Assembly: GCA_947168885.1 (NCBI GenBank)
Contig: CAMVNQ010000010.1
Span: 1-64,000 of the forward strand
Reading direction: 5' to 3'
Source: an uncultured Clostridia bacterium
Lineage (GTDB): Bacteria > Bacillota > Clostridia > Oscillospirales > Ruminococcaceae
Length of the DNA: 64,000 bases
Shown here: in pieces, positions 25,502 through 34,468 of the stretch
Layout: the number at the start of each line of letters is the position of its first letter
Numbering within the stretch: position 1 is the stretch's first letter
Made by a program: the position numbers and the translations under genes
The notes under the pieces: model-generated
Databases searched by the model: none
The model's input: the letters and a program-made list of their open reading frames with translations, nothing else
Told to the model about the DNA's origin: nothing

Positions 25502-26251
25502 TTATGCTTCCCTGTTCTTCGCGTTTATGATACGCGCAACGAATGTCAGCTTCTCGCTGTCTTCTGTCGGAGAGTTCTCCGTCGGGTACTCATAGCACGC
25601 GCAAAGCTCGAATCCCGCTTCTTCAAGGAGCTTTTCTATCGTCTCCTCCGCCCATGCCGTCTCGGTGAAATCATCGGAACTGCGGCGGTAAATATCACCG
25701 TCACGCTCAAAAAAATCGAGCTGTATCGCGGTAACACCGTTCCCCTCGTATTCGTTCTCCCAGACGCAGAAAACATCGTCGGTCTCATAAACGTATGTAT
25801 TGTCGGCAAGCACATTCTCGTGCTTATACGGCGTGTTCACATCGAACACGAAAACTCCGCCCGCATTCATAAACAGTGCGACCTTCTCAAAAACTGTCCG
25901 CACTTCGTCGATGCTTTCAAGGTGGTTAAGACTGTCAAGCGCGCAAACTGCCGCATCTATCGTACCGAACATATCAAGCTCCGTCATATCCTGACAGAGG
26001 TACTGTACACCGTCGTGAGGCTTCGCAAACGCAATATCGAGCATTTCCGGCGACGCGTCAGTTCCGATAACGTCGTAACCCTTTTCCGAGAGCAGAACCG
26101 AAAGCGATCCCGTCCCACAGGCGAGATCGAGCAATATTCCCTTATCTCTGCCGAAACGCGAGACAAGCCGGTCAAAATACTCTGCAAGAGCGTTATAGTC
26201 TATATTCGCGGTAAGTTCATCGTAATATCGCGCGAATGTGTCATAGCTCAT
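25502..26251 (-). CDS. Class I SAM-dependent methyltransferase
   Basis: The protein has 249 residues. Motif I is ILLDLACGTGSLSVLLSEKG (about residues 39-58), followed by VIGTDASPEML, CALDSLNHLES and GGVFVFDVNT. It resembles the group that includes BCG1362-type and dTDP-sugar or small-molecule methyltransferases; the substrate cannot be told. It is coupled by a 4-bp overlap to the TrpR-like gene upstream, an arrangement known in clostridia. Confidence 0.85.
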   Translation of the reverse strand: MSYDTFARYYDELTANIDYNALAEYFDRLVSRFGRDKGILLDLACGTGSLSVLLSEKGYDVIGTDASPEMLDIAFAKPHDGVQYLCQDMTELDMFGTIDAAVCALDSLNHLESIDEVRTVFEKVALFMNAGGVFVFDVNTPYKHENVLADNTYVYETDDVFCVWENEYEGNGVTAIQLDFFERDGDIYRRSSDDFTETAWAEETIEKLLEEAGFELCACYEYPTENSPTEDSEKLTFVARIINAKNREA

Positions 26252-26553
26252 CCCATTTTGCCCTGTTTCTTAAGGCGGTCGAATACTACACCATAGCCGT
26301 CCTTACCGGTCTGGAGCGTTCTGTTCACGCGGCTTATGGTTGCGGTGCTCGCGCTTGTTATATCAACGATATCCGCATATACTTTGTCTTCTGTAAGATA
26401 CTTTGCCACAACAAGTCTCTGTGAAATAGATGCAAGCTCCTGAACTGTGCAGAGATCTTCAAAGAAAGCTGCGCACTCCTCGATGTTTTTGAGCTGGAGG
26501 ACTGCTTCATAAAGGAATTCACGGTTTTCGTAGTTAATCTGGCGTTTTTTCAT
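26248..26553 (-). CDS. YerC/YecD-type TrpR-related regulator
   Basis: The protein has 101 residues. The TrpR-like helix-turn-helix is VQELASISQRLVVAKYLTEDK then YADIVDITSASTATISRVNR. This is the YerC/YecD family, which shares the TrpR fold but is not known to bind tryptophan. I take ATG 26553 because AAAGGAAAT precedes it; the ORF extends 11 codons further without a site. The promoter at 26615-26643 is close to consensus. It is the first gene of a two-gene operon with the methyltransferase. Confidence 0.88.
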   Translation of the reverse strand: MKKRQINYENREFLYEAVLQLKNIEECAAFFEDLCTVQELASISQRLVVAKYLTEDKVYADIVDITSASTATISRVNRTLQTGKDGYGVVFDRLKKQGKMG

Positions 26554-26614
26554 GTCTATTTCCTTTCCATTTATCGATCGCGGCACTTTACCGCATAACG
26601 TATTACTACATTAC

Positions 26615-26643
26615 AGTTTATCACGCAAAAGCCGAAAAGTCAA
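26615..26643 (-). promoter_or_regulatory. Promoter of the TrpR-like/methyltransferase operon
   Basis: On the minus strand TTGACT (26643-26638) and TAAACT (26620-26615) are separated by 17 bp. Confidence 0.65.
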
Positions 26644-26740
26644 GCATTTTCGTAATATTTTTACATCTGATCCAATTGCTTCATACGGTAATATTTATCC
26701 CTGAGCCGGAATATTATGTACAAAAACGGAGGGACAAACA

Positions 26741-27214
26741 ATGAAAAACATCAAATGGACAGATCTGCTCATATTCGTTATCATAGCCGAACTTGTCGGC
26801 ACGGTATCGGGAATAGTTTCCGGCGGGAGCTTCGGAGCGTACTACGACACTATAGCCATGCCGCCGTTCTCACCGCCCGGCTGGCTTTTCCCGGTCGTAT
26901 GGACTATACTCTACGCGCTGATGGGCGTTTCGGCGTATCTCATACACAGCTCAGACGCTCCTGCAAAAAAGCAGGCACTTGACATCTACTGGCTCCAGCT
27001 TCTCGCAAACTTTCTGTGGAGCCCCGCATTCTTCGGGATCAGATCCTTCGGGACAGCAGTCGCCGTTGTCATAGTCATGCTCGTTCTTATCGCAATAATG
27101 CTGGCAGTTTTCGGGAAGATACGAAGATCTGCGGTATGGCTCAACATACCGTACCTCGTCTGGACTGTATTCGCCGCGTACCTGACGATAGGCGCTTACG
27201 TTCTCAACGGCTGA
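26741..27214 (+). CDS. TspO/MBR-family membrane protein
   Basis: The protein has 157 residues and five membrane helices. Signature segments are AMPPFSPPGWLFPVVWTILYALMGVSAYL (the conserved PPxWxFPxxWTxLY region), LLANFLWSPAFFGI and LNIPYLVWTVFAAYLTIGAYVLN. TspO proteins bind porphyrins and sterol-like ligands and are linked to stress responses. A GGAGG site precedes the ATG. Its end overlaps the end of plsX on the other strand by 19 bp, so the two transcripts are convergent and share their tails. Confidence 0.95.
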   Translation: MKNIKWTDLLIFVIIAELVGTVSGIVSGGSFGAYYDTIAMPPFSPPGWLFPVVWTILYALMGVSAYLIHSSDAPAKKQALDIYWLQLLANFLWSPAFFGIRSFGTAVAVVIVMLVLIAIMLAVFGKIRRSAVWLNIPYLVWTVFAAYLTIGAYVLNG

Positions 27215-28188
27215 GCTGCCGCGAACTCACCCTTTATCTTCTCGATGAGTCCGTGCTCCGCGAGACGGTAGGCTGTATTGATTATATTGTACACAGTCTC
27301 CGCGTTTGCCGCGCCATGCCCTTTGATTATAGGAAGCTTCGTACCGAGCAGCACCGCGCCGCCCTGCGAATTATAATCGTACTTCTTATAAAGCCTGTCG
27401 AACGCTTCCTGCGGAATATCGCCGGACGTTCTGCGAAGTTCAGAGATGACAGCTTTCGCGCTTCCCTCAAGGGCTTTGAGCAGGATATTGCCCGAGAACC
27501 CGTCGCACGCCAGAACATCTGCCCTGCCTTCGAGCACGTCGCCGGCTTCGATATTGCCGATGAAGTTTATGCCGCTTGCGCGCAGGAGCTCGTTCGCTTT
27601 TCTGACGACACCGCTTCCCTTCTTGTCCTCGGCACCGTTTGAGAGCAGCCCGACCTTCGGTTCGTCAACGCCCGATGCTTTCATGTACGCAATGCCCATT
27701 CGTGCGAAATCGACTATCTTTTCCGCGCGGCAGTCAACGTTAGCGCCGCAGTCAACGATACAGAACGGTGTATCGTCCGTTCTTTTCAGCTCCGCAAGAA
27801 GAATGGGGCTTACCGGAACGACGCGCCCGAGTATCATCATCGCGCAGACGAAGATCGCACCCGTCGCACCGCATGACACGAACCCACCTATATCGGGGTC
27901 GGACTTGCAGAGTGACATTCCGCGGACTATGGAGGAATCCGGCTTTGCCTTATATGCCTCGGCAGGATCTTCACCGTTTATTATGACCTGCGGACAATCC
28001 GCTATCTCAATGCGGTCCTTTCTGTAACCGTTCTTTTCTATGTATTCTTCAAGCACATCTTTGTCTCCGCAGAGATAAAGGAACAGCCCCTCGTTGTCAC
28101 GCACCGCACGGAAAGCTCCGTCGATGAGTTCTGTCTGCGGTCTGTCCGCGCCTTTCAGATCAACAACTATCTTAACTATTTTTACCAC
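27196..28188 (-). CDS. plsX: PlsX-like acyl-ACP:phosphate acyltransferase
   Basis: The protein has 330 residues, the family length. PlsX features are FVSCGATGAIFVCAMMILGR (in place of SAGNTGALM), FCIVDCGANVDCRAE, ANELLRASGINFIGNIEA, DVLACDGFSGNILLKALEG and GGAVLLGTKLPIIKGHGAANAETV. The usual N-terminal DAMGGD is replaced by VDLKGADRP, so it is a diverged member. The start is a GTG at 28188 overlapping the end of the reductase gene by 17 bp; ORFs further upstream are in a shadow frame. It would make acyl phosphates from acyl-ACP for PlsY. Here it is the last gene of the ketosynthase cluster, and acyl donor specificity may differ from the housekeeping enzyme. Confidence 0.85.
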   Translation of the reverse strand: MVKIVKIVVDLKGADRPQTELIDGAFRAVRDNEGLFLYLCGDKDVLEEYIEKNGYRKDRIEIADCPQVIINGEDPAEAYKAKPDSSIVRGMSLCKSDPDIGGFVSCGATGAIFVCAMMILGRVVPVSPILLAELKRTDDTPFCIVDCGANVDCRAEKIVDFARMGIAYMKASGVDEPKVGLLSNGAEDKKGSGVVRKANELLRASGINFIGNIEAGDVLEGRADVLACDGFSGNILLKALEGSAKAVISELRRTSGDIPQEAFDRLYKKYDYNSQGGAVLLGTKLPIIKGHGAANAETVYNIINTAYRLAEHGLIEKIKGEFAAAQPLRT

Positions 28189-28924
28189 CCGCTTCTTTTT
28201 GTTCCTGCCAGAAACGTTCGGCAAGGATCCTGTATGTTTTTTTGGAAAACCACGGCTTCGACAGCTCCGCGGCCGTTTCTTCGTCAATAAAGCCCTGCTG
28301 CATGAACATCCGACCCGCCTTCTCCGCCATTCCGGTGAACGCCGCAAGTCTGTGTGTCGAACCCGCTTCCACGAGAGCTTTAATCTGGGGACAGAATATC
28401 GCGGTGTAGTTTCCGCGTCCATAGATGAGATCATACTGCCCGCGAAGCGGAGCAAATACCTCTTCGCCCTCGGAGAATCCACAGGACGAGATGACAGCGA
28501 AATGCTGCTCCTTATCGGTATCTCTGAAACGATGGGAAAGCCCCTCGTCCGGAGCCGGCATAAATCCCTTATATGTCTCGAACATACCGAGCATACGGTC
28601 GATAAAGGTCTTGAAAGCTCCAGGCATTCCGAAAAAATAAAGCGGATAGCTGTGTATGACAAAATCCGCTTCTTTAAGCTTTTTCATCAGAAGCCCCATA
28701 TCGTCGTCCTTTATAACACATTCGCCCTCCGTGCGTCCCCAACAGGAGAGACAGCCGCGGCAGGGCTTTATGTTCATATCCGGTATGTTGATGTACTCCA
28801 CGGTGCTTTCCCGCTCTTTTACCATTCCGCCGACGAACGCTCTCGTCGCAGTCATGGTGAAGCTTTTTTCACGCTTGGGGCTTCCGTTTATAACAAGTAT
28901 TTTTTTAGATGTATCGTCGGACAT
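28172..28924 (-). CDS. Flavodoxin-like NAD(P)H-dependent FMN reductase
   Basis: The protein has 250 residues. The N-terminus KKILVINGSPKREKSFTMTA is the FMN phosphate loop of the NADPH-dependent FMN reductase fold. CRGCLSCWGRTEGECVIKDDD is a Cys-rich loop common in the clostridial members, and VIHSYPLYFFGMPGAFKTFIDRML is the second flavin contact. The C-terminal 70 residues are an extension seen in some relatives. It lies between fabZ and plsX in the ketosynthase operon. It is not a recognised enoyl-ACP reductase, so its part in the pathway is unclear. Confidence 0.85.
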   Translation of the reverse strand: MSDDTSKKILVINGSPKREKSFTMTATRAFVGGMVKERESTVEYINIPDMNIKPCRGCLSCWGRTEGECVIKDDDMGLLMKKLKEADFVIHSYPLYFFGMPGAFKTFIDRMLGMFETYKGFMPAPDEGLSHRFRDTDKEQHFAVISSCGFSEGEEVFAPLRGQYDLIYGRGNYTAIFCPQIKALVEAGSTHRLAAFTGMAEKAGRMFMQQGFIDEETAAELSKPWFSKKTYRILAERFWQEQKEAGGKNS

Positions 28925-28950
28925 CTGAATCTTTGCCTTTCTGATGCATA

Positions 28951-29394
28951 TTATCGCGAATATACCGCGGAGCTGTCGATTGCCGTGAACACGAGCGAAC
29001 CTTTCGCGTGTACCTTTCCGTCAACACAGACTTTTGCGTCAAAATAGTAGAGTCCGGCTCCCGCTTTCGTCTTTGTTACGGTTATATCGAGAACATCCCC
29101 CGGTATAACAGCCTTCACGAACTTGAAGTTATCGACCTTCAGCAGCACATAAAGCTTGTCGTCGGAAGCGTCCGGCTCGATAACGAGCGAACAGAGCTGT
29201 GCACAGCTCTCGACGATGAGGACTCCCGGCATTATCGGCGCACCGGGGAAATGCCCGACGAAGTGCGGCTCGTTCACGGACACACACTTTATGCCGCGTG
29301 CACTCTCTTCGGGGACAAGCTCGGTCACACGGTCTATCATCTGAAACGGCGGGCGCTGCTTTATGCGCTCGTTGATCTCGTTTATAGTCATCAT
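28951..29394 (-). CDS. fabZ: 3-hydroxyacyl-ACP dehydratase, FabZ type
   Basis: The protein has 147 residues in a hot-dog fold. RPPFQMIDRVTEL is followed by the active-site segment PHFVGHFPGAPIMPGVLIVESCAQL, with His in GHFP and the acidic residue in LIVESCAQ. The start ATG 29394 overlaps the fabG stop (ATGA) and has GGAGG upstream. It dehydrates 3-hydroxyacyl-ACP. In this operon it follows the ketoreductase, as expected for a type II elongation module. Confidence 0.93.
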   Translation of the reverse strand: MMTINEINERIKQRPPFQMIDRVTELVPEESARGIKCVSVNEPHFVGHFPGAPIMPGVLIVESCAQLCSLVIEPDASDDKLYVLLKVDNFKFVKAVIPGDVLDITVTKTKAGAGLYYFDAKVCVDGKVHAKGSLVFTAIDSSAVYSR

Positions 29395-30122
29395 AATGAG
29401 ATACCTCCGTCCATGGTTATTACCTGACCGGTAATGTACGCGCACGCGTCGGACGCAAGCATGGATACTACCGCCGCCACTTCATCGGCAGTACCAAAGC
29501 GGTGCAGCGGGATAGTTTTCAGGTACTCCTCTTTTTTCTCTGCGGAAAGAGCGTCTATCATCTCTGTCTCTATGAAGCCGGGAGCGACCGCGTTGACTCT
29601 TATGCCCTTAGCGCCCATTTCCTTGGCAAGGACACGGGTAAGTGCGTTCACTGCGCCTTTTGTGGCACTGTAAACACTTTGTCCCGCAAGGGCAAGTTCG
29701 CCGCTTACTGAGGACATATTTATGATAACGCCCTTTTTCTTCCTGAACATCTTCAGTCCTGCCTGCTGAGCGCAGTAGAAGTAACCCTTGACGTTAAGAT
29801 CCATGCACTTGTCCAGGTCGTCCATATTGAGCATGAGCAGCAGGTTATCCCTTACTATGCCGGCATTGTTTACGAGAAGGTCGATCTGACCGTACTGCTT
29901 GTCAACATCCTTTATCATCTGCTTGACCTGTGCAAGATCAGACACATCGGCTTTATATGTCATACCGTCGCCGCCGTCGGCTTTTATTGTTTCGAGAACT
30001 TTCTGAGCCTCATCATCGCTTCTGCTGTAATTGATGACAACGGTATATCCGTCCCTGGCAAGACGCAGAGCACAGGCTTTTCCTATACCGCGGGAAGCTC
30101 CGGTTATGAGTGCGACTTTCAT
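29391..30122 (-). CDS. fabG: 3-oxoacyl-ACP reductase, FabG type
   Basis: The protein has 243 residues of the short-chain dehydrogenase family. The cofactor motif is TGASRGIGKACAL, the NNAGI motif is present, the catalytic Ser-Tyr-Lys are in INMSSVSG and VYSATKGAV, and the end is YITGQVITMDGGISL. It reduces 3-ketoacyl-ACP with NADPH. It is coupled to fabZ by 4 bp and lies 12 bp after the fused ketosynthase gene. Confidence 0.95.
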   Translation of the reverse strand: MKVALITGASRGIGKACALRLARDGYTVVINYSRSDDEAQKVLETIKADGGDGMTYKADVSDLAQVKQMIKDVDKQYGQIDLLVNNAGIVRDNLLLMLNMDDLDKCMDLNVKGYFYCAQQAGLKMFRKKKGVIINMSSVSGELALAGQSVYSATKGAVNALTRVLAKEMGAKGIRVNAVAPGFIETEMIDALSAEKKEEYLKTIPLHRFGTADEVAAVVSMLASDACAYITGQVITMDGGISL

Positions 30123-30134
30123 AGTATGGTCTCC

Positions 30135-32525
30135 TTATCTGCTTATGATTACGGCACTGTACGATCCGCCCGTGCCGAACGCGACTGCGAGTATATTGTT
30201 CAGCGCAGCGCTCTTCACTGTGCCTGTATGAACTTCTGCATCGTCAAGATATGTGCAGCCGTACTCCGCAATATCACCGTGCAGCATCAGAGCCGCGTGT
30301 GCAGCGCCGAGAGCCGCTGAAGCCGCTCTTCCCTCGCCAAGCTTCTTCTTCACAGATATAACAGGAAGTTTTGCGAGTTTATCACCGAATACACGGCGAA
30401 GTGCGTCACATTCTATCTTATCCACAACTGTATGTCCGTCAGCAAAACCAACAACAGCGTCAATATCACTTATTGACATTCCCGCATCTGCAAGCGCGTT
30501 GTTTATCGCGGTATCGAGAGCTTCTCCGGAGCCCGTGAGCTTTCCGAACTCAACGCTCCTGCACGCCGTTCCGAACCCTTTTGCGCGTGCATATATCCTT
30601 GCGCCGCGTGCTTCAGCAGTCTCCGCGTCTTCAAGGAGTATCGACGTGCTTCCGTCTGAAAGTGTGATCTTGTCATTGTGTGAATAGGGCTGAACACAGG
30701 TATCGGCAGCAAGACCGAGATCCTTGTAAAGTCCGCGTATTATTTCATTGTTCTCGTCCGTTCCCGTTGCAAGCACCGCTTTGCCGCGTCCGAGACGTAT
30801 AACGTTCATTCCGTAGCCGACCGAGAAAAGTCCCGACTGAGCACCGTTCGTAGCCGTAACGTTATATCCCTTTATGCCGGAGCATATCGACAGATAGCCT
30901 CCCGCCGCATTATATACAGTATTCGGAAACTTGAACGCGCTTCCGTTGGCATTACCCTTTTCCGCGATAAGCATTTCGAAATCGCACACCGGCGAGAGAG
31001 AACCTTCTGAGGTACCGACGATTATACCTATGTCCGTCGCGTTATCGCTGTTCACGGTGTAATTACCATCTTTCAGAGCATACATTCCGGAAACAGCCTG
31101 TAACTGGCTGAAACGGTCGAGCTTGCGGTAGAACGCCATTTTGAGTCCGAGCTCGTCGTACTCGTCCTTTCCGACCGAAGAACAGAGATCGGCAGTCCCG
31201 GGCGCATTTTCGTCGGCACAGCTCTCGATATACTTCTGAGCGCCGTTGCCTGCGGGGGTAACTATACCAAGTCCCGTGATGCATATTTCCGGAAGCTTGT
31301 CCGGCTTCTTCATGCTGCCGGTCTTTTTGCTGAATATGATGCTCGCGTTGTTTCCGCCGAAAGCAAAGGAGTTGCTCATAACGGTGTCGAGCTCTTTTTT
31401 CTTGGGTGAGTTAGGACAGAAATCAATGCTTCCGGCTCTTTCGGCAAGAAGTCCGAGATCGTCGTCCGAGAAGCCGAGTGTGGGCGGTACAGTGTTTTCC
31501 GTAAGCGCCTTGACCGCAAGAACAGCTTCCACCGCTCCCGCAGCACCGAGACAATGTCCCGTCATCGCCTTGGTCGAACTTGCGCTGAGGTGATCGTTCT
31601 TTCCGCCGAATATCGTGCGAAGAGAAAGGAACTCTGCTTCGTCATTCTTTGCCGTGCCGGTTCCGTGCGCGTTTACATAGTCGATATCCGTTTCGCTTAC
31701 GCCCGAGCCTTCTATCGCCCAGCGTATAGCGTTCATCTGACCCTCGCCGTCCGGTCTGGGAGCGGTAATGTGATGCGCGTCACTGCTTATTCCCGAACCG
31801 AGAACTTCACAGTATATCTTTGCTCCGCGCTTTACTGCGTGCTCATAGGACTCAACGATAAGAGCTCCCGCGCCCTCGCCGAGAGTGATACCGCTCAGGT
31901 GGTTGAACGGCGAACAAGGGTTCGCGTCAAGCGCATGAAGCGATGTAAACCCTGCAAACGGAACGGACGAGAACGAGTCTGCGCCGCCTGCTACTACAAC
32001 ATCGGCCTTTCCCGCACGGATAAGGTCAGCAGCGTAGGAAATGCTTATCGTTCCGGCTGCACAGGCATTTGCAACGTTCATAACGGCACCGCCTGCACCG
32101 CAGTAACCGGCAGCCTGTGAAGCTATCGCGGAAATCGGCATCTGCGGTATGAGTTCTGCCGACTTTTCCTTGGTATAGTACTTCTCGACGCTTACAACGC
32201 CGCCGACACAGCTTCCCATTATAACACCCGCGCGTTCACTTCCGCCGAAGCCTTCGATCTTCGCGTCACGCATAGCTTCATCGACAGCTTTTATGCAGAG
32301 CTTCGAGACTCTGTCCATTTTCTCCGTGCAGGCGATGTTGTCCCACTTGTCGCCGCGGACCTCCGCAGCGTAGTCGGAATAGCAGTTCTCCGTATCCACA
32401 GTCTTTGTATGGTCTATGCCGGATTTTGACGCCATAGCGCTTTTCCAGCATTCATCAACATTTTCACCGATAGCCGAGATCATTCCGAGTCCGGTTATCA
32501 CACAGCGCATCTCATCGTTATTCAA
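30135..32525 (-). CDS. Fused double ketosynthase: active KS plus dead, chain-length-factor-like KS
   Basis: The protein has 796 residues and two FabF-like domains in tandem. Domain 1 (about 7-400) has all catalytic residues: Cys155 (NACAAGT), His287 (HGTGT) and His324 (KAMTGHCLGAAG). Domain 2 (about 412-795) aligns end to end but has Ala562 at the Cys position (NGAQSGL), a Phe in FADGH in place of HGTGT, and Glu in place of the second His (KKLGEGRAA). The arrangement mirrors the KS-alpha/KS-beta (chain-length factor) heterodimers of type II polyketide and aryl-polyene systems, but in one chain. The first start is TTG 32525, with AAAGGCGG upstream; ATG 32510 is the alternative. It is downstream of the ACP gene with a hairpin between them. 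Polyene-like output is inference. Confidence 0.9.
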   Translation of the reverse strand: MNNDEMRCVITGLGMISAIGENVDECWKSAMASKSGIDHTKTVDTENCYSDYAAEVRGDKWDNIACTEKMDRVSKLCIKAVDEAMRDAKIEGFGGSERAGVIMGSCVGGVVSVEKYYTKEKSAELIPQMPISAIASQAAGYCGAGGAVMNVANACAAGTISISYAADLIRAGKADVVVAGGADSFSSVPFAGFTSLHALDANPCSPFNHLSGITLGEGAGALIVESYEHAVKRGAKIYCEVLGSGISSDAHHITAPRPDGEGQMNAIRWAIEGSGVSETDIDYVNAHGTGTAKNDEAEFLSLRTIFGGKNDHLSASSTKAMTGHCLGAAGAVEAVLAVKALTENTVPPTLGFSDDDLGLLAERAGSIDFCPNSPKKKELDTVMSNSFAFGGNNASIIFSKKTGSMKKPDKLPEICITGLGIVTPAGNGAQKYIESCADENAPGTADLCSSVGKDEYDELGLKMAFYRKLDRFSQLQAVSGMYALKDGNYTVNSDNATDIGIIVGTSEGSLSPVCDFEMLIAEKGNANGSAFKFPNTVYNAAGGYLSICSGIKGYNVTATNGAQSGLFSVGYGMNVIRLGRGKAVLATGTDENNEIIRGLYKDLGLAADTCVQPYSHNDKITLSDGSTSILLEDAETAEARGARIYARAKGFGTACRSVEFGKLTGSGEALDTAINNALADAGMSISDIDAVVGFADGHTVVDKIECDALRRVFGDKLAKLPVISVKKKLGEGRAASAALGAAHAALMLHGDIAEYGCTYLDDAEVHTGTVKSAALNNILAVAFGTGGSYSAVIISR

Positions 32526-32574
32526 TTCGGTTTCCGCCTTTCTTTACGGCTCGTGACAGAGCCGCAGTCTTTAT

Positions 32575-32625
32575 AACACCAATAAAGCCCTTACTTTTGT
32601 AATGTCGTAAGAGCTTTACGGTCAA
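32575..32625 (-). other. Hairpin between ACP and ketosynthase genes
   Basis: TAAAGCTCTTAC and GTAAGGGCTTTA pair with a loop of about 12 bases on the minus strand, about 25-65 bases after the ACP stop. It is probably a partial terminator or mRNA-end stabiliser that yields more ACP than enzyme message. That role is inferred. Confidence 0.45.
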
Positions 32626-32647
32626 ACTTCGATCGATTTTTATCTGA

Positions 32648-32899
32648 TCAGTTATCCTTATGTTCCGAAATATACGCGGCAATACTATCGATATTGAGGA
32701 AGTGTTCTTTTCCTACACCGGTCATATCAACGCCGTACTCATCGTCAACAAAAGAGATTATCTCAAGCGAATCAACGGAATCGAGACCTATGGAATCCTC
32801 ACCGAAAAGCTCTGTGTCATAATCGAGCACATCGGGTTCAACACCGAGATTGCTGCAAATAAGTTCTTTTACCTTAGCCTTTATTTCAGAATCTGCCAT
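32648..32899 (-). CDS. Acyl carrier protein
   Basis: The protein has 83 residues. The phosphopantetheine Ser is in GLDSVDSLEIISF (about residue 38), the DSL-type motif, preceded by ELFGEDSIG and followed by the acidic helix III region. The overall charge is strongly negative, as usual. It is the first gene of the cluster, with a promoter 46 bp upstream and a GGAG site. Standard FabF-system ACPs have DSLDxVE; the DSVDSLE variant together with its context suggests a carrier dedicated to this cluster. Confidence 0.93.
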   Translation of the reverse strand: MADSEIKAKVKELICSNLGVEPDVLDYDTELFGEDSIGLDSVDSLEIISFVDDEYGVDMTGVGKEHFLNIDSIAAYISEHKDN

Positions 32900-32945
32900 A
32901 TCTACTTCTCCTTTTTTAAATAATACAATGACATTTTACCATATC

Positions 32946-32973
32946 ATTATACAACATTCCCCGTTTTTTTCAA
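32946..32973 (-). promoter_or_regulatory. Promoter of the ACP-ketosynthase operon
   Basis: On the minus strand TTGAAA (32973-32968) and TATAAT (32951-32946) are separated by 16 bp. Confidence 0.75.
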
Positions 32974-33025
32974 ACATACAATATATTATAAGTGCACAAA
33001 ATTAGTACATTTTGCGGTAAATGCA

Positions 33026-33061
33026 CAAAAATCTGCCCGTGCTATTTCGGCACGGGCAGAT
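33026..33061 (-). terminator. Terminator after trpB
   Basis: On the minus strand ATCTGCCCGTGC pairs perfectly with GCACGGGCAGAT around a 7-base loop, followed by TTTTGTG. It separates trpB from the ACP cluster. Confidence 0.85.
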
Positions 33062-33097
33062 CATATATATCGCAAAGCCGCTTTATATAAGCGATTT

Positions 33098-34468
33098 TCA
33101 GTCTATCACGGGAAGCCCTGCGAAACTCTTCTGAAGCTCTTCATCCGTCGGGATATAATCGGTCATCTCGCCGTCGTTGAATTTCTGGTAAGCGACCATA
33201 TCAAAATATCCTGTTCCGGTAAGACCGAAGAGGATCGTCTTTTCTTCGCCTGTCTCCTTGCACTTCAGAGCCTCGTCGATAGCTACACGGATAGCATGGC
33301 TCGACTCGGGCGCGGGAAGAATTCCCTCGATGCGTGCGAACTTCTGTGCCGCCTCAAATACCGCAGTCTGCTCAACCGAAACCGCTTCCATAAGCTTGTC
33401 ATCGTAAAGCTGCGAGAGTGTGCTGCTCATACCGTGATAGCGCAGACCGCCGGCATGGTTAGCGGACGGGATAAAGCCGCTTCCGAGAGTGTACATCTTA
33501 GCGAGCGGGCATACCATTCCGGTATCGCAGAAATCGTAAGCGTACTTGCCGCGTGTGAAGCTCGGGCAGCTTGCGGGCTCGACCGCGATTATTCTGTAAT
33601 CCGCCTCACCGCGGAGCTTCTGTCCCATAAACGGCGAAATGAGACCGCCGAGGTTCGATCCGCCGCCGGCACAACCGATGATGATGTCAGGCTTTACACC
33701 GAGCTTGTCGAACGCAGCCTTGCTCTCAAGACCGATTATCGACTGGTGCAGGAGCACCTGATTGAGAACGGAACCGAGTACATATCTGTAGCCCTCGGTG
33801 TGGGTCGCCACTTCAACAGCTTCCGAGATAGCGCAGCCAAGGCTTCCTGTCGTTCCCGGGTGAGCCGCAAGTATCTTTCTTCCGACCTCTGTGGTCTCGG
33901 ACGGAGAAGGCGTGACAGAAGCACCGTAAGTTCTCATAACTTCACGGCGGAAGGGCTTCTGCTCATACGAAACTTTTACCATAAACACCTTGCAGTCAAG
34001 TCCGAGATATGCGCACGCCATAGAAAGCGCTGTTCCCCACTGACCCGCACCGGTCTCGGTAGTAACGCCCTTCAGACCCTGCTTCTTTGCATAGTAAGCC
34101 TGTGCGATAGCGCTGTTGAGCTTGTGGCTTCCGGAAGTATTGTTGCCCTCGAACTTATAGTATATCTTTGCCGGAGTGTCGAGCACCTTTTCAAGGCAGT
34201 ATGCCCTTACGAGCGGCGAGGGACGGTACATCTTATAGAAATCAAGTATTTCCTGCGGGATGTCTATATACGCAGTATCATTGTCGAGCTCCTGCTTGAC
34301 GAGCTCTTCGCAGAACACGCCGGAGAGCTCCTCGGCGGTCATAGGCTGATGAGTACCGGGGTTGAGCAGGGGCGCGGGCTTGTTCTTCATATCCGCTCTT
34401 ACATTATACCACTGCTTCGGCATCTCGCTTTCTTCAAGATAAGTCTTGTATGGTATGTTCTTTTCCAT
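33098..34468 (-). CDS. trpB: Tryptophan synthase beta chain, TrpB2 type
   Basis: The protein has 456 residues. The PLP lysine is in GSHKLNSAIAQAYYA, the TETGAGQWGTALSMACAYLG and phosphate-binding CAGGGSNLGGLISPF segments are present, and the end has FGLTGTGYFDM. The extended N-terminus (IPYKTYLEESEMPKQWYNV) and length mark the TrpB2 subgroup rather than TrpB1. TrpB2 enzymes convert indole and serine to tryptophan, often without an alpha subunit nearby. No other trp genes are in the window. It has an excellent own promoter and terminator, so it is a single-gene unit and could salvage indole. Confidence 0.93.
   Translation of the reverse strand: MEKNIPYKTYLEESEMPKQWYNVRADMKNKPAPLLNPGTHQPMTAEELSGVFCEELVKQELDNDTAYIDIPQEILDFYKMYRPSPLVRAYCLEKVLDTPAKIYYKFEGNNTSGSHKLNSAIAQAYYAKKQGLKGVTTETGAGQWGTALSMACAYLGLDCKVFMVKVSYEQKPFRREVMRTYGASVTPSPSETTEVGRKILAAHPGTTGSLGCAISEAVEVATHTEGYRYVLGSVLNQVLLHQSIIGLESKAAFDKLGVKPDIIIGCAGGGSNLGGLISPFMGQKLRGEADYRIIAVEPASCPSFTRGKYAYDFCDTGMVCPLAKMYTLGSGFIPSANHAGGLRYHGMSSTLSQLYDDKLMEAVSVEQTAVFEAAQKFARIEGILPAPESSHAIRVAIDEALKCKETGEEKTILFGLTGTGYFDMVAYQKFNDGEMTDYIPTDEELQKSFAGLPVID

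Follow-up and report, generated by a model that had tools for sequence, protein, structure and literature searches.

A second type II system with a fused ketosynthase and chain-length factor in Clostridia, and the acyl chain that it may build

What does a bacterium build with a ketosynthase (KS) joined in one chain to a second, catalytically dead KS, when its genome encodes a separate housekeeping fatty acid synthase (FAS)? The question is raised by a gene cluster on contig 10 of an uncultured member of the Clostridia (host genome 3.78 Mb, 97.9% complete), within the window analysed here, that is, the whole stretch of 64,000 nucleotides from position 1 of that contig. Our answer, to which we give a probability of roughly 0.55, is that the cluster is a dedicated second type II system building on its own acyl carrier protein (ACP) a special acyl chain, polyenoyl and possibly reduced in part, for use in glycerolipids. 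The six genes of the initial annotation are all present on the minus strand, with coordinates as first annotated:

32648..32899, minus strand: acyl carrier protein, 83 residues (Pfam PP-binding, 1.7e-7)
30135..32525, minus strand: fused KS and chain-length factor (KS-CLF), 796 residues, TTG start (Pfam and NCBIfam, residues, model, Foldseek)
29391..30122, minus strand: FabG-type ketoreductase (KR), 243 residues (NF009466 FabG, 239.9 bits, above the cut-off of 222)
28951..29391, minus strand: FabZ-type 3-hydroxyacyl-ACP dehydratase (DH) (NF000582, 134.6 bits, above the cut-off of 113)
28172..28924, minus strand: flavodoxin-fold flavoprotein, 250 residues (PF03358 and PF02525)
27196..28185, minus strand: second, diverged PlsX, 329 residues (PF02504, 8e-71, above cut-off)

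The fused chain comprises an active KS (about residues 1-405) followed by an inactive KS or chain-length factor (CLF; about residues 406-796). In the active half the catalytic residues C155, H287, K319 and H324 are invariant in 50 aligned rows. The inactive half has Ala562 in place of the active-site Cys, Phe694 (within FADGH) in place of the first His and Glu731 in place of the second, just as the initial annotation had it in stating that all three catalytic residues were lost; to this must be added the correction that a Lys remains at the catalytic Lys position (726) in this protein. An AlphaFold2 model of the fusion forms one pseudo-dimer (predicted local distance difference test score, pLDDT, 90.5; predicted template modelling score, pTM, 0.93), whose top whole-chain Foldseek match is the KS-CLF of PfaC (PDB code 6riw; TM score 0.78, 19% identity). 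The ishigamide KS/CLF (6kxd), which we take to consist of separate chains from Streptomyces, tied with FabF structures in the structure comparison. By sequence, the best PDB match of both halves is 9s5h, where chains B and C place a KS and a KS-like chain lacking the Cys in one entry; this entry is absent among the 50 matches listed in either structure search. The residues, the pseudo-dimer and the PfaC match together bear out the earlier suggestion that the inactive half is a putative chain-length factor fused in cis.

Sequence profiles point in the same direction for both halves. Compared with 16 references each, KS and CLF both score best against one fused synthase, that of P. megaterium pBM500 (551 versus 480 for E. 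coli FabF in the case of the KS, 275 versus 257 in the case of the CLF). The alignment shows that this cyl-like synthase is itself a KS-CLF fusion, 34% identical to ours across 819 aligned columns; the KS half is 38% identical to E. coli FabF. A further fused KS-CLF was seen on a Streptomyces plasmid (locus L102, 11938-14304), adjoining separate KS, DH, malonyl-CoA:ACP transacylase (MAT) and FAD enzymes.

Two KS/CLF trees were built. The Streptomyces CLF was left out of the first, and both it and ApeC of the second; ApeC, from the aryl-polyene locus of E. coli CFT073, whose genes presumably carry the Ape letters that we use, and the short Streptomyces CLF could not be placed, owing to their shortness or divergence. 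When the very divergent ApeC is included it falls outside the CLF side, with support of 83/62, and without it the 14 CLF halves stand together on one side of a branch supported at 100/100. Constrained topologies were compared by the approximately unbiased (AU) test, which rejects a grouping of the family KS with two FabF sequences (p 0.019).

That the cluster stands beside, and not in place of, ordinary fatty acid synthesis follows from the rest of the genome. On contig 4, FabH, FabK, FabG, FabF, biotin carboxyl carrier protein, FabZ, AccC and AccD are encoded consecutively, each scoring above the same-named NCBIfam cut-off, and contig 3 encodes another PlsX with a far better family score (336 versus 239 bits) that is 33% identical to the cluster PlsX. 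The KS half as the housekeeping FabF is ruled out by the AU test just given, as is a genome with no other FAS by the FabH-to-AccD operon. At the level of sequence, the proposal of a second type II system apart from the housekeeping one is borne out, the KS phylogeny and the genome search both agreeing. A further small system was noted elsewhere (locus L006, 11963-15504; G000 contig 1, about 448.0-451.5 kb), composed of an ACP, a KS (366 residues), a KS-like protein lacking the active Cys (336 residues) and a GNAT acetyltransferase, with NCBIfam matches to cispentacin AmcF and AmcG that lie under cut-off.

The gene set recurs in relatives. The best 80 of 123 loci from GTDB species genomes were examined, and tblastn found ACP in 75, KR in 77, DH in 74, the flavoprotein in 70 and PlsX in 8 of them. 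Clustering of neighbours added a PlsC-like protein at 59 loci (just upstream of ACP), MAT at 23, AccD-AccA at 21, a phosphopantetheinyl transferase (PPTase, PF01648) at 21, a patatin-like family at 16 and an acyl-ACP thioesterase at 3; each of these families was named from a single representative, six being Pfam-scanned and the others read by eye. Many locus records are short, so that the gene counts are lower bounds. Since most of the 80 loci repeat it, the gene set lies far beyond chance. After filters, copies of usable length numbered 69 of 72 for the flavoprotein, 72 of 75 for DH, all 80 for KR, 68 of 75 for ACP, 58 of 59 for the PlsC-like protein and 20 of 21 for PPTase.

Catalytic residues are conserved throughout this set. 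Ser41 of the ACP, in a DSx motif and presumably the site of phosphopantetheine attachment, is kept in 68/68 copies; N110 of the KR is found at 79 of the 80 loci and S138, Y151 and K155 at every one, these four being, we assume, the motif of short-chain dehydrogenases/reductases (the KR also scores 280.9 bits against TIGR01830, under the cut-off of 297.75). The DH carries its His65/Glu79 pair (open reading frame numbering; 47/61 from the placed start) in 72/72 copies, its start having been placed where 70 of 72 relatives have Met.

The distribution is patchy, which fits a specialised trait: among 71 genomes of the genus nine carry the cluster, as do four of 291 genomes sampled from the class, the host genome being counted in both and the other three positive class genomes all falling within one genus. 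In record titles, close relatives appear as Ruminococcus, Ruminiclostridium or uncultured Clostridia. The carriers in culture include Ruminococcus bromii YE282 (locus L061) and Lachnospira eligens ATCC 27750 (L100), in which the cluster lies on a 627-kb plasmid with MAT, a carboxylase beta subunit, a flavodoxin-family protein and PlsX. Near-clostridial copies of the cassette are also carried by metagenome-assembled records titled Anaeroplasma and Bacteroides (L019 and L086), through binning error or transfer.

How might the system work? The KS half would condense malonyl-ACP with the chain growing on the private ACP, and the dead half, as chain-length factor in the same chain, would line the opposite side of the pocket. 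KR and the FabZ-type DH would then take each cycle to a 2-enoyl group, and because the operon holds no classical enoyl reductase, most double bonds would be kept, yielding a polyenoyl-ACP. The core flavoprotein would probably remove or adjust some of these double bonds, the weakest step of the scheme. In the clade of the window, PlsX would convert the acyl-ACP to acyl phosphate, whereas most relatives would use a PlsC-like enzyme that accepts the acyl-ACP directly.

Pfam and NCBIfam recognise no enoyl reductase in the cluster, in agreement with the initial annotation, which had listed the flavoprotein without giving it weight. This protein is present in 44 of the 45 loci with full flanks, and its motif CX2CX2CX7C (C55, C58, C61 and C69) is found in 69/69 usable locus copies and in 116 of 120 homologues among the matches listed. 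Since a core flavoprotein with four invariant Cys residues accompanies the cluster so regularly, the cluster may have an enoyl reductase after all; the flavoprotein may be that enzyme, an enzyme of polyene tailoring or a redox partner. Its model (pLDDT 91.4) leads in structure comparison to generic azo- and quinone reductases. The motif fits the compact CX2CX2CX5-7C given for iron-sulfur flavoproteins (Isf; PMC3164229), a likeness, within a flavodoxin fold, that is drawn here from sequence and model.

If the flavoprotein were a non-classical enoyl (ene) reductase, the cluster would be a complete second FAS making a saturated or mono-unsaturated special chain, an explanation that we regard as possible but doubtful. 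It draws on the constancy of the flavoprotein and its four Cys residues, and on its best PDB sequence relative, 7d38 (E 7e-10, residues 8-111 of 250), a code named in the paper on the flavone ene-reductase (FLR) of gut clostridia, in which hydride passes from FMNH- to the beta carbon (PMC7862272). The match, however, covers the FMN-binding part alone and ends at residue 111; the substrate-binding tail of FLR is C-terminal. Neither FLR (7d38) nor Isf structures are among the 50 structure matches listed for the flavoprotein model, for which the generic reductases were found instead. We know, moreover, of no flavodoxin-fold enoyl-ACP reductase.

The lipid destination was first proposed from PlsX. 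Among the 45 full-flank loci, a count that includes the window (its PlsX entered by hand), 39 have a PlsC-like gene, four have PlsX, two have neither (L019 and L072) and none has both; these loci are related and so do not represent 45 independent events. Since PlsC or PlsX is present in nearly all of them, and never both, a glycerolipid is the likely destination of the product as judged from gene content. The initial proposal thus stands as to lipid but needs amending as to the enzyme: PlsX occurs only in the closer kin of the window (8/80 loci) and in L. eligens, and PlsC is the usual partner. The cluster PlsX is diverged, scoring 237.8 bits against TIGR00182, just below the cut-off of 243.4, and above the cut-off of PF02504. 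The earlier statement that its N-terminal DAMGGD is replaced by VDLKGADRP is too strong, as the D-A-x-G-G-D motif keeps its D, G and D. Those PlsC-like genes of the host genome that most resemble the cluster-type PlsC (contig 9) reach at best 83.6 bits, below the internal median of that family (118.5) and above its minimum (64.3); one of them could conceivably serve the cluster.

Alternatively, the product could be a pigment resembling granadaene or the aryl polyenes, capped and exported rather than placed in glycerolipids. The synthase is of the same type as in cyl-like operons, and ACP, KS, CLF, KR and DH without a classical enoyl reductase also make up aryl-polyene clusters, which likewise hold a lysophospholipid acyltransferase. 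Genes of an ABC-transporter ATPase family lie near the cassette in 6/81 loci, on the same strand and no farther than 4 kb on the upstream or 8 kb on the downstream side; in L050 (5406-6979) and L051 (6150-7719) two such genes directly precede the flavoprotein gene, and export is possible in that sub-branch to judge from these neighbours. At 6/81, nonetheless, the ABC ATPase family is outside the core of the cassette, and so are capping genes of the CylF type. In the window, the nine proteins of 25502-34468, all assigned by Pfam, and a neighbouring 112-residue TrpR-related protein show no GcvT (CylF), ABC, glycosyltransferase, MMPL/LolA or AMP-ligase domain, a Pfam scan in which no CylE profile was applied. 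We therefore think the pigment unlikely. Ordinary cis-unsaturated fatty acids, formed by an anaerobic route in which the FabZ-type DH doubles as isomerase on the model of FabN-like dehydratase/isomerases, would suit an ACP/KS/KR/DH set with PlsX or PlsC but are a very improbable product, as such a route needs no CLF, the cluster is present in so few genomes of the genus (9/71), the DH scores as FabZ with its His/Glu pair, the ACP is private, and MAT, acetyl-CoA carboxylase or PPTase accompanies part of the relatives.

Several points weigh against a dedicated polyenoyl-lipid system, the reading that we prefer. The flavoprotein could be the enoyl reductase of the cluster itself, and the housekeeping FabK could work in trans and yield saturated chains. 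The product is predicted wholly from the genes, and the lipid destination from gene neighbourhood, with export possible at the six loci with an ABC ATPase. In the phylogeny the AU test does not reject a clade of the family KS with the two other fused KS halves (p 0.245) or a grouping of KS with ApeO (p 0.08), both constraint groups having been picked after inspection of a first tree; the KS tree lacks resolution at several of its deep branches, and a fused-KS clade is permitted there with no positive support.

Taking the preferred reading further, we tentatively propose, at well under even odds, that gut commensals among the Clostridia, with Lachnospira eligens and Ruminococcus bromii among them, make membrane glycerolipids with a conjugated polyenoyl chain assembled by the fused KS-CLF on the private ACP, the flavoprotein setting the number of double bonds and PlsC or a private PlsX loading the chain on glycerol phosphate. 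Were this so, strict anaerobes would possess a class of redox-tunable polyene membrane lipids. A literature search of titles and abstract openings found no description of this gene set. The cluster suggests that gut and rumen Clostridia, cultured ones among them, have a lipid or pigment class that is likewise missing from that search. It would also offer a compact four-protein system in which a CLF acts in cis while the ACP stands alone, and possibly an enoyl reductase of a new kind.

From KS-CLF to PlsX the genes are closely spaced or overlapping. The most likely start of PlsX is the GTG at 28185, within the final part of the flavoprotein gene, and a 488-residue open reading frame at 27196-28662 is merely the PlsX frame extended upstream. 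Downstream, on the opposite strand, lies TspO, and upstream a TrpB-like gene; the search of contig 10 with PF00109 found no KS besides the fused chain. Two further features concern the ACP gene:

32946..32973, minus strand: promoter-like site TTGAAA-16-TATAAT, matching 11/12 consensus positions and preceding ACP (consensus scan)
32526..32647, minus strand: hairpin region between ACP and KS-CLF (RNA fold)

The scan of the region gave 12 promoter-like sites against 6.1 expected from shuffles. The fold of 32526-32660 has an energy of -40.2 kcal/mol and a z of -4.48. Among 12 relatives inspected, five (L012, L013, L014, L015 and L017) also have a hairpin with a AAGGGCTTT-like 3' arm in this gap, the z of the whole gap ranging from -0.9 (L013) to -4.3 (L012) with simple base shuffles; L011, L021 and L040 have hairpins of other kinds, and in L018, L019, L024 and L066 the same shuffles gave no significant hairpin in the gap. 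The hairpin is possibly an attenuator or processing site that raises ACP relative to the enzymes. Given a strong hairpin after ACP and a promoter-like site of its own before it, ACP may be produced in excess over the enzymes, and for the same two reasons a single operon is not certain: the six genes of the original claim are all there, their single transcript is in doubt.

Comparison with known systems places the cluster more closely. Housekeeping FabF has no CLF, and the genome has its own FabF besides the cluster KS. PfaC (6riw) resembles the present protein in having KS and CLF fused in one chain. It is part of the type I megasynthases of polyunsaturated fatty acid synthesis, with dehydratase domains in the same chain; the 796-residue chain described here shows only Pfam domains of ketosynthase/thiolase type. 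The celluxanthene (cex) clusters of cellulolytic Clostridia were considered as close kin and ruled out, being type I iterative polyketide synthases (PMC12144888); the same source describes Ruminococcus flavefaciens DSM 25089, a presumed maker of a similar pigment, as having neither a cex-like cluster nor celluxanthenes.

The initial annotation likened the gene set to aryl-polyene systems, known mainly from Gram-negatives, a comparison that no longer holds as the closest one. The aryl-polyene cluster of E. coli CFT073 (L106) does share KS, CLF, KR, DH and ACP and the lack of a classical enoyl reductase. Its KS (ApeO) and CLF (ApeC, 240 residues) are nevertheless separate where ours are one chain, and its lysophospholipid-type acyltransferase, shared with most of the relatives studied here, is absent from the window cluster. 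It has as extras a second KS (ApeR), an acyl-CoA synthetase, LolA, an MMPL exporter and a glycosyltransferase, none of which is found by Pfam among the nine proteins at this locus, where the acyl-CoA synthetase and LolA/MMPL were sought.

Judged by their gene content, the nearest described systems are instead the Gram-positive polyene makers, namely granadaene cyl and the fun and pks clusters of L. reuteri. These share one long ketosynthase, ACP, KR, MAT, carboxylase and PPTase (PMC6985545, PMC6498181), the long fused ketosynthase, ACP, KR and DH of cyl being common to our cluster. All three are described as lacking an enoyl reductase, and pks as required for a pigment absorbing at 405-409 nm; the long ketosynthases of L. 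reuteri, FunB (798 residues) and PksB (688 residues), may be KS-CLF fusions too (lengths from PMC6498181). Near the pBM500 synthase, itself adjoining a GcvT-like gene, lie MAT, KR, ACP, DH and PPTase. This neighbourhood contains many of the genes given for cyl operons (PMC6985545) and fits a cyl-type operon, although the label CylI-like is our own. Each system has its particular genes. The cyl operons have CylE, CylF and an ABC exporter, with CylF and the CylA transporter reported in all of them (PMC6985545), while fun has an oxononanoate-synthase-like gene and pks an MFS transporter (PMC6498181). The gene tables of cyl, fun and pks give no PlsX or PlsC, and those of cyl and pks, like the E. 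coli aryl-polyene locus, list no flavoprotein of the Cys-motif type (PMC6985545, PMC6498181); in fun, the 194-residue NAD(P)H dehydrogenase FunL is a possible counterpart, compared by description alone (PMC6498181). The cluster shares the core of these Gram-positive systems, and has besides it the Cys-motif flavoprotein and a gene for lipid hand-off.

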